A stretch of DNA of 21,520 nucleotides from a virus. The first letter of the stretch is position 1; every line of letters starts with the position of its first letter. This document shows, piece after piece, positions 10,344 through 18,355 of this stretch. The notes under the pieces were generated by a model. The model ran no database searches, was not told where the DNA came from, and saw only the letters and a list, made by a program, of their open reading frames with translations. The DNA lies in IMG/VR virus record IMGVR_UViG_3300033273_000240, positions 1 through 21,520 of that record. One strand, given 5' to 3'. The translations under genes and the position numbers were made by a program.

Positions 10344-11258
10344 ATGGCAATTTCAAGAGCTCAGTTATTAAAAGAACTGCTCCCAGGTCTTAATGCTTTA
10401 TTCGGTATGGAATACCAGCGTTATGGCGAAGAGCACAAAGAAATCTACGAAACAGAATCATCAGAAAGAAGTTTCGAAGAAGAAACAAAACTATCAGGCT
10501 TCGCAGCTGCCCCTAACAAGGCTGAAGGTGCTGCAATTGCGTATGACAACGCACAAGAAGCTTGGACAGCTAGATATAATCACGAAACAATCGCTTTAGG
10601 CTTCTCATTAACTGAAGAAGCAGTAGAAGATAACTTGTATGACACTTTATCTGCTCGTTACACTAAAGCATTAGCTCGTGCTATGTCTTACACAAAACAA
10701 GTTAAAGCTGCTAACGTTTTAAACAACGGCTTTGACGGTACTAACTACCCAGGCGGTGACGCTAAAGCATTATTTGCTACAGATCACCCATTAGTAAACG
10801 GCGGTACAAACAGCAATACGCAGTCAGTTGCTGCTGACTTAAACGAAACTTCATTAGAAAACGCAGTTATTCAGTTAGCTGGTTGGACAGATGAAAGAGG
10901 TTTATTAATTGCTGCTAAACCACGTAAACTAATTATCCCACCAGCATTACAGTTCGTGGCTACTCGTTTATTAGAAACTGACTTAAGAGTTGGTACTGCT
11001 GATAACGATATCAACGCATTACGTAGTAACGGTGCGATTCCAGAAGGCTATGCAGTAAATCACTTCTTAACAGATACTGATGCATACTTCTTAACAACCG
11101 ATGTTCCTAACGGTATGAAGCACTTCGAAAGAACTGCATTAACTACTTCTATGGACGGCGACTTCGACACAGGTAACGTACGTTACAAAGCTCGTGAGCG
11201 TTATTCATTCGGTTGGTCAGATCCCCTCGGTATGTGGGGCTCACAAGGCGCTGCTTAA
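10344..11258 (+). CDS. Major capsid protein
   Basis: A 304-residue protein with the layout of HK97-fold coat proteins of the Mu gpT-like group: an N-terminal helical arm (MAISRAQLLKELLPGLNALF), a charged E-loop region (residues about 30-65), a spine helix region (LSARYTKALARAMSYTKQVK), the KALFATDHPLVNGGT segment, a P-domain strand KPRKLIIPPALQF, and the C-terminal KARERYSFGWSDPLGMWG. It has an AAGGAG site 8 bases before its ATG and is followed by a strong terminator, both fitting the most abundant virion protein. Confidence 0.9.
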   Translation: MAISRAQLLKELLPGLNALFGMEYQRYGEEHKEIYETESSERSFEEETKLSGFAAAPNKAEGAAIAYDNAQEAWTARYNHETIALGFSLTEEAVEDNLYDTLSARYTKALARAMSYTKQVKAANVLNNGFDGTNYPGGDAKALFATDHPLVNGGTNSNTQSVAADLNETSLENAVIQLAGWTDERGLLIAAKPRKLIIPPALQFVATRLLETDLRVGTADNDINALRSNGAIPEGYAVNHFLTDTDAYFLTTDVPNGMKHFERTALTTSMDGDFDTGNVRYKARERYSFGWSDPLGMWGSQGAA

Positions 11259-11286: not shown

Positions 11287-11315
11287 AAGACCCAGTTTCG
11301 GCTGGGTCTTTTTTT
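11287..11315 (+). terminator. Strong intrinsic terminator after the capsid gene
   Basis: Nine-base arms AAGACCCAG (11287-11295) and CTGGGTCTT (11302-11310), a 6-base loop and a T-run to 11315. It closes the head operon 28 bases after the capsid stop codon and separates it from the pqqA-like gene. Confidence 0.95.
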
Positions 11316-11411
11316 ATTTATAACTCATGGTTTTCTTTATAGTTTTTCTTTTTAATATCAATACAATACATATATCAGCTATGCTGAAATTTAATTTAAG
11401 GAGATTACATT

Positions 11412-11483
11412 ATGTGGACAACACCATCAGCAACAGAAATGAGATTTGGTTTTGAAGTAACAATGTACGTATGTAACAAGTAA
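11412..11483 (+). CDS. pqqA: PqqA-like PQQ precursor peptide (23 aa)
   Basis: A 23-codon gene with an excellent ribosome-binding site (AAGGAGA, 11398-11404, 7 bases before the ATG). The peptide opens MWTTPSATEMRFGF and continues EVTMYVCNK. This matches the short beta/gammaproteobacterial PqqA type (recalled pattern: MWT-x-P at the start, R-x-GFEVTMY near the end). In PqqA the Glu and Tyr of E-x3-Y are cross-linked by PqqE (with PqqD) and cut out to become pyrroloquinoline quinone; here they are Glu15 and Tyr19. The C-terminal Cys21 is unusual to me. Terminators on both sides make it a separate transcription unit. No pqqB-E genes are in the window, so it would feed the host pathway. Confidence 0.85.
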   Translation: MWTTPSATEMRFGFEVTMYVCNK

Positions 11484-11718
11484 GTATATAATTTAAAAAC
11501 TTATTATCTATTCGGTACGGTGGCTAGGAAACAGCCTGAATCGTTTAAAAGGGATAATATTTTAAAAGCACCAACATTAAAGGGCCTAGTGTCCTTTTTT
11601 GTTGTATAATACTAATAAGTGATGTATTATCTTATTATCTGGGAACAACCAGCTTATCAGACTGCCCCAGCAGACGCATACACGACGGATAAGCTTAACT
11701 TTGTATGGAGAAACACTA
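11484..11718 (+). other. Structured intergenic stretch after pqqA
   Basis: No convincing gene. It contains a small hairpin GGCT/AGCC (11522-11536), a TTTAAAA/TTTTAAA hairpin (11544-11566), the weak terminator at 11579-11600, and a long-range 8-base inverted repeat AGCTTATC (11651-11658) / GATAAGCT (11688-11695) enclosing CTGC/GCAG. The last forms a folded leader for the 11719 gene. A 44-codon frame (11622-11756) crosses this leader, overlaps the next gene out of frame and lacks a good ribosome-binding site. Confidence 0.5.
11579..11600 (+). terminator. Weak intrinsic terminator downstream of pqqA
   Basis: AAAGG (11579-11583) pairs with CCTTT (11593-11597), with one added G-U pair and a 7-base loop, followed by a T-run to 11600. 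The stem is weak and overlaps the T-run, so it may leak. Confidence 0.5.
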
Positions 11719-11946
11719 ATGGCAACAACAACCTTTACAGGCCCAGTTGTATCTAACAACGGGTTCACATCTACAGCAATCGCATTTGCTAACTTACCAA
11801 CAGCTTCAGACAGCACAGGTCAAGTAATCTTTTGTTCTAACGCATTAAAAGCATCTGAAACAGCAGGTAACGGTACAGGCAACTTAGTATTTTCTGACGG
11901 TTCTAACTGGATCCGCGTTGATACCGGCGCTACAGCATCTGCTTAA
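11719..11946 (+). CDS. Small beta-rich virion-type protein (75 aa)
   Basis: The sequence MATTTFTGPVVSNNGFTSTA followed by Gly/Thr/Asn-rich strands and ending SDGSNWIRVDTGATASA resembles short phage structural proteins such as head-fibre or tail-tip subunits. The upstream TTG at 11701 in the same frame is rejected because GGAG (11707-11710) lies 8 bases before the ATG at 11719. It begins the second rightward block, preceded by the folded leader. Exact role unknown. Confidence 0.75.
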   Translation: MATTTFTGPVVSNNGFTSTAIAFANLPTASDSTGQVIFCSNALKASETAGNGTGNLVFSDGSNWIRVDTGATASA

Positions 11947-17839: not shown

Positions 17840-18355
17840 ATGGCTCTTGTTGTTAAAGACAGGGTAAAAGAAACTACTACCACGACAGGTACAGGCACTT
17901 TAACACTAGCTGGAGCAGTGACTGACTATCAAGCTTTCTCTGCTATTGGCGATGGTAATACAACGTATTACACCATTCAGTTAAGTACAAGTGATGAGTG
18001 GGAAGTAGGTCTTGGTACATATACTGCATCAGGTACGACTTTATCTCGTGATACTATTCTTGCGTCCTCTAATTCAGGAAGTGCAGTTAATTTTTCTGCA
18101 GGAACTAAAGATGTATTTGTTGTGTATCCAGCAGGTAAAGCAGTATACGGAGATGCAAATGGGGATGTTACAGTTTCTGGAGTTGTACGAGGCACAGAAC
18201 TAGAGGCATCAAATGGTATAGTTACAAACAATGAGACCGTTGGTGCTAATTATACTTTTCCTACAGGATATAATGGAATGAGTGTAGGACCAATTACTAT
18301 TAGTAGTGGGGTTACAGTAACAGTACCGTCAGGGCAACGCTGGGTAGTACTGTAA
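17840..18355 (+). CDS. Tail-fibre-like protein with MSVGPITI tip (171 aa)
   Basis: The N-terminal part (MALVVKDRVKETTTTTGTGT, then AFSAIGDGNTTYYTIQ and YTASGTTLSRDTILASS) is typical of short marine phage tail-fibre subunits. It ends with MSVGPITISSGVTVTV and PSGQRWVVL, a conserved C-terminal tip shared in the window with the 19358 gene. The tip is likely a receptor-binding or trimerising end. TAGGAGG site present. It is directly joined to the following repeat gene (TAAATG), which has no ribosome-binding site. Confidence 0.8.
   Translation: MALVVKDRVKETTTTTGTGTLTLAGAVTDYQAFSAIGDGNTTYYTIQLSTSDEWEVGLGTYTASGTTLSRDTILASSNSGSAVNFSAGTKDVFVVYPAGKAVYGDANGDVTVSGVVRGTELEASNGIVTNNETVGANYTFPTGYNGMSVGPITISSGVTVTVPSGQRWVVL

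Follow-up and report, generated by a model that had tools for sequence, protein, structure and literature searches.

Why should a phage carry a gene for the 23-residue precursor peptide of the cofactor pyrroloquinoline quinone (PQQ), with none of the genes for the enzymes that process it? The question is posed by a 72-nucleotide (nt) open reading frame (ORF) at positions 11412-11483 (+ strand) of IMG/VR record IMGVR_UViG_3300033273_000240, whose 21,520 nt were analysed as a whole and are referred to below as the window. The exact translation of the ORF is MWTTPSATEMRFGFEVTMYVCNK, and this peptide matches both Pfam PF08042 (41.3 bits against a cut-off of 21.1, E=1.4e-10) and the NCBIfam equivalog TIGR02107 (43.3 bits against a cut-off of 20, E=2.2e-11), so that the identification made in an earlier note, of a 23-residue PqqA with Glu15 and Tyr19, is borne out by translation and by the profile search that the note had proposed. 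Because both PqqA models scored about twice above their curated cut-offs, a chance ORF is excluded, as it also is by the ratio of nonsynonymous to synonymous substitution rates (dN/dS) given below. Glu15 and Tyr19, the Glu-x3-Tyr pair that is the source of the PQQ skeleton, are both intact, and at 23 residues the peptide lies within the range of PqqA (about 22-30 residues with a conserved N-terminal leader). It shares its length, leader residues and Glu15-x3-Tyr19 motif with PqqA of the Methylophilaceae type, is 91-96% identical to the host PqqA variants, and differs from the commonest of these, MWTTPAATEMRFGFEVTMYVMNK, at only two positions (A6S and M21C). By these measures the ORF is a genuine PqqA.

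In addition to its identity, the peptide bears the marks of selection. IMG/VR was searched by capsid and by a DNA pattern for the PqqA core, yielding at least about 200 loci; PqqA is encoded on 120 or more viral contigs, and every such contig count is a minimum. In the 118 distinct viral sequences compared, the ratio of nonsynonymous to synonymous polymorphism (pN/pS) is 0.19 and dN/dS is about 0.10, with synonymous sites near saturation; the capsid-locus set gives a dN/dS of about 0.09, and the host pqqA genes give 0.08 in the same analysis. The search pattern fixes the seven residues GFEVTMY, including Glu15 and Tyr19 in the pattern-selected set, and conservation there is consequently biased, but Trp2, Pro5 and Arg11, which lie outside these residues, are invariant in 118 of 118 viral sequences. 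Furthermore, a Shine-Dalgarno sequence precedes every viral pqqA (130/130), and a terminator lies within 150 nt of the gene in 67 of 125 viral copies, compared with 6.8 in shuffled sequences. As judged from these substitution patterns, viral pqqA is under purifying selection and is maintained.

The gene recurs in phages that have little else in common. When 50,697 phage records were searched with the peptide by tblastn, it matched nine isolate phages of Methylophilales or Methylophilaceae, namely P19250A, Venkman (EXVC282S), MEP301, MEP401, MEP402 and four Melnitz phages, as well as one phage from spring water whose terminase is Venkman-like. The remaining matches were set aside: MT839883 is a chance match (E=5), and two contigs bear the label Acinetobacter phage MD-2021a, of which the one inspected (L207, CAKLQF020000010.1) has ppk together with pqqBCDE and resembles host chromosome more than phage. 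Among the nearest relatives on other hosts, pelagiphages (HTVC010P type, Hodr, HTVC023P), ICP2 and Lentibacter phages had no PqqA match in the tblastn list. The isolates carry the same type of orphan pqqA with its own Shine-Dalgarno sequence, as in the window, but at other loci (in replication modules, beside tRNA-Leu or next to MEP402 gp69), and they belong to phage groups unrelated to that of the window. No significant similarity was found among the capsids of the window, MEP402, MEP301, Venkman and P19250A, and among their terminases only those of the window and MEP402 are similar, at 23%. This distribution is most simply read as independent acquisition by phages that have a host family in common.

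None of the genuine phage matches is annotated as PqqA, and in Melnitz EXVC044M and MW202481 the ORF annotated at the pqqA site lies on the opposite strand, which agrees with the expectation in the earlier note that the gene would be missed in related genomes; at 23 codons, it is probably missed systematically because of its length. Taken together, orphan pqqA is probably a hallmark of Methylophilaceae phages, acquired independently in about six groups, and one of a class of auxiliary genes that encode a consumed substrate peptide, not an enzyme.

The orphan state is general. No viral pqqA locus includes pqqB-E, no PqqE scored above the cut-off in the 21 larger viral contigs, and each of these contigs holds exactly one pqqA (21/21). 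One of them, a 72 kb contig (G014, the record of locus L123), also encodes a PQQ-dependent alcohol/methanol dehydrogenase (34049-35731, 608 bits), and resembles in this respect Lake Baikal virus VP_266, which likewise carries pqqA and a methanol-dehydrogenase-type gene. PqqA of other types was observed on viral contigs L084, L093, L098, L104, L105, L108 and L158. Phages of other PQQ producers may, to judge from such sequences, carry pqqA as well.

Within the capsid family of the window, pqqA lies 50-550 nt behind the capsid gene on the same strand in about 19 distinct relatives, in which both the ORF and its two reactive residues are kept at the capsid locus, as the earlier note had anticipated. 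In the capsid tree the window falls in a supported clade (99/94) of 16 rows, 13 of which have pqqA; further carriers lie elsewhere in the tree, and about seven gains or losses are needed to account for them. The slot behind the capsid is empty in L067 and L071 and holds endonuclease-like or zinc-finger-like genes (judged by eye from sequence) in L005, L055, L043 and L031, and these alternatives mark it as an insertion hotspot. The capsid relatives that lack the gene yielded no decayed copy in a local hidden Markov model search (best E=0.76), and no pqqA was found in the 15 such relatives checked for copy number.

The window is itself a phage fragment by its hallmark genes, a terminase, a portal and a major capsid protein of the phrog_371 type (10344-11258, +), whose closest relatives among annotated phages are from Planktothrix, Synechococcus, Pelagibacter phages and others, not from phages of methylotrophs. 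Host contamination is ruled out by the presence of capsid and terminase in the same window and by the absence of pqqB-E; in line with the earlier note, this 21.5 kb fragment contains no other pqq gene, and pqqA is its only PqqA.

All signals around the gene lie on the + strand. The intrinsic terminator of the capsid gene (11287-11310), which follows the capsid stop codon, forms the upstream edge of the pqqA unit, and the intrinsic terminator of pqqA itself, identified by terminator scan and fold, lies at 11579-11597; the scan found 4 terminator-like sites, with 0.3 expected. Rfam matches near the capsid terminator were rejected as sub-threshold terminator look-alikes. The good ribosome-binding site described in the earlier note is present as AAGGAG (11398-11403), 8 nt before the ATG. 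The note had also claimed a separate transcription unit, and of this claim the two flanking terminators stand, but a consensus scan found no consensus sigma-70 promoter on the + strand. A putative -10 element missed by that scan, TACAAT (11362-11367), is followed by a small hairpin, TCAGC-TAT-GCTGA (11375-11387), and the pair aligns with TATAAT plus hairpin in L008, L012, L013 and L017; the hairpin also recurs in L002. Because the -10-like element and the hairpin line up in relatives, transcription of pqqA as a unit of its own is well supported, albeit not proven. The 3' untranslated region (UTR) of pqqA includes a structured insert (11497-11565, +), TTATTATC...GATAATA with an inner GGCT/AGCC hairpin, which is common to L012 and L013 and is absent from L002 despite a 99% identical capsid.

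Two lines of indirect evidence bear on the host. A DNA pattern search of bacterial genomes for the PqqA type of the window returned 120 loci, whose titles name Methylophilaceae genera or carry uninformative labels compatible with Methylophilaceae, and host PqqA of this type occurs in both freshwater and marine Methylophilaceae. Among full-length matches to the tail-fibre-type protein of the window (17840-18355, +), the best are in Venkman and MW202481, both of which bear pqqA. These similarities point, indirectly, to a host of the Methylophilaceae type, a family whose core genome includes PQQ synthesis (PMC4109929), and thus to the PQQ-producing methylotroph that had been proposed. Cultured Methylophilaceae have 3-12 pqqA copies and typically one pqqBCDE set, and orphan pqqA is normal among them (PMC4109929). 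Likewise, eight host genomes analysed here hold 2-12 copies each, and pqqB-E are missing from the vicinity of most host pqqA loci detected. The window gene differs in being phage-borne and without pqqB-E, the pqqBCDE set residing in the host genome. With host metabolic homologues and a position on a bona fide phage, it is a good candidate for an auxiliary metabolic gene.

What such a gene could do follows from the chemistry of the pathway. PqqE, with PqqD, cross-links the Glu and Tyr of PqqA, PqqB and PqqC finish PQQ, and one PqqA is consumed per PQQ formed. This consumption of PqqA as a substrate explains why amplification in hosts is confined to pqqA and why a phage needs no other pqq gene; phages would supply the precursor to the PqqB-E enzymes of the host. 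By analogy, the multiplicity of pqqA in hosts (2-12 copies) would express the same dosage logic as phage pqqA. We consider it quite likely, on the comparative evidence above, that the pqqA of the window is a functional orphan gene, acquired from a host of the Methylophilaceae type and retained by selection as a moron-type auxiliary metabolic gene that tops up or keeps up PQQ. The gene would have entered as a one-gene insertion, with the capsid terminator on one side and the leader of the following gene on the other, and would be transcribed from its own promoter during infection; its peptide would be bound by host PqqD and cross-linked at Glu15 and Tyr19 by host PqqE, and host PqqB and PqqC would complete PQQ. 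The extra peptide would top up the PQQ of XoxF/MxaF methanol dehydrogenase, or keep its level if host transcription fails, and methanol oxidation would thereby be sustained for phage production. Conversion of supplied peptide has a precedent in work cited in PMC9851590, where, as described in that citation, a cell-free extract turns added PqqA into PQQ.

Other roles can be weighed against the same data. The phage might halt or degrade host messenger RNA and re-supply the short pqqA message merely to hold PQQ at its normal level, which would fit the separate promoter/terminator unit as well as the absence of pqqB-E, the enzymes persisting while the peptide is consumed. We give this maintenance account a small but real share of the probability, and nothing in the data tells boost from maintenance. 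The very short length of the gene, its variable flanks and its structured 3' segment (z=-2.9) might suggest a neutral passenger, derived from the host and lacking any peptide function, or a transcript acting as RNA. It is the protein, however, on which selection acts (dN/dS about 0.1), conservation of the UTRs does not extend from one phage group to another, and the gene recurs in phages that are unrelated but share a host family, all of which makes this explanation very unlikely. Least probable, and barely credible, is a decoy or brake in which the phage peptide would occupy PqqD/PqqE and lower host PQQ. A competitor would also need only the substrate to be encoded, but a decoy should lose Glu15 or Tyr19, whereas the window peptide keeps both reactive residues and the leader residues and stays close to the host variants in overall identity.

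Several observations nonetheless weigh against a selected gene that supports PQQ supply. The hosts already hold several pqqA copies, and overexpression of pqqABCDE in Methylovorus raised PQQ only modestly, as cited in PMC9851590. Carriage is also patchy: L005, L067 and L071 lie inside the pqqA clade and lack pqqA at the capsid locus, and MW202697, which has a MEP402-like terminase (host not identified), gave no PqqA match.

Downstream of the pqqA unit lies a second element, a double-pseudoknot leader RNA (11639-11710, +) ahead of the gene at 11719-11946 (ATG at 11719). Three covarying helices (11639-11643/11666-11670, 11652-11658/11688-11694 and 11677-11682/11702-11707) are arranged in the order a-b-a'-c-b'-c', equivalent to two pseudoknots, and the final strand of the last helix touches the Shine-Dalgarno sequence of that gene. 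In 41 capsid-family relatives, 90% of cells of the central helix are paired, and each position shows 3-6 pair types; sliding the helix lowers the paired share to 35-40%, and shuffles reach no more than 66%. The outer two helices are likewise above all shuffles. As the leader is present with and without pqqA (L046, L067), it belongs to the downstream gene. Rfam 15 contains no match to it, and Mu-gpT-DE (RF03012), considered as its identity, gave no match at E<=1; on its covariation, the leader is probably a new RNA that regulates, in cis, the gene following the capsid.

Viral PqqA as such has been described before. It was reported in 2020 for VP_266, together with methanol dehydrogenase, and there too it was proposed to be an auxiliary metabolic gene, one that serves PQQ and the methanol dehydrogenase of Methylophilaceae (PMC7678222); pqqA is also listed among viral genes in a 2026 paper (PMC13188868). 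VP_266 is, however, T4-like and carries methanol dehydrogenase itself, whereas the window has a phrog_371 capsid, is HTVC023P-like and holds pqqA alone in its 21.5 kb. The paper on Melnitz mentions PQQ only as a medium additive, that on MEP401/402 does not mention it, and no report of pqqA recurrence across methylophages was found in the open-access literature. The kind of gene is thus already known, and its recurrence across methylophages appears to be new.

Methylotrophs of the OM43 and LD28 groups are important to one-carbon cycling in coastal and fresh waters, and in OM43 the most abundant transcript is often that of XoxF methanol dehydrogenase (PMC5120137). The idea that phages act on cofactor supply can be tested now, because the isolates Venkman, Melnitz, MEP301 and P19250A exist. 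The small size of pqqA also means that a class of auxiliary genes sits below gene-calling cut-offs. If nearly all OM43/LD28 phages carry a spare PQQ precursor gene, the supply of a cofactor substrate would be a convergent target of infection in these bacteria.
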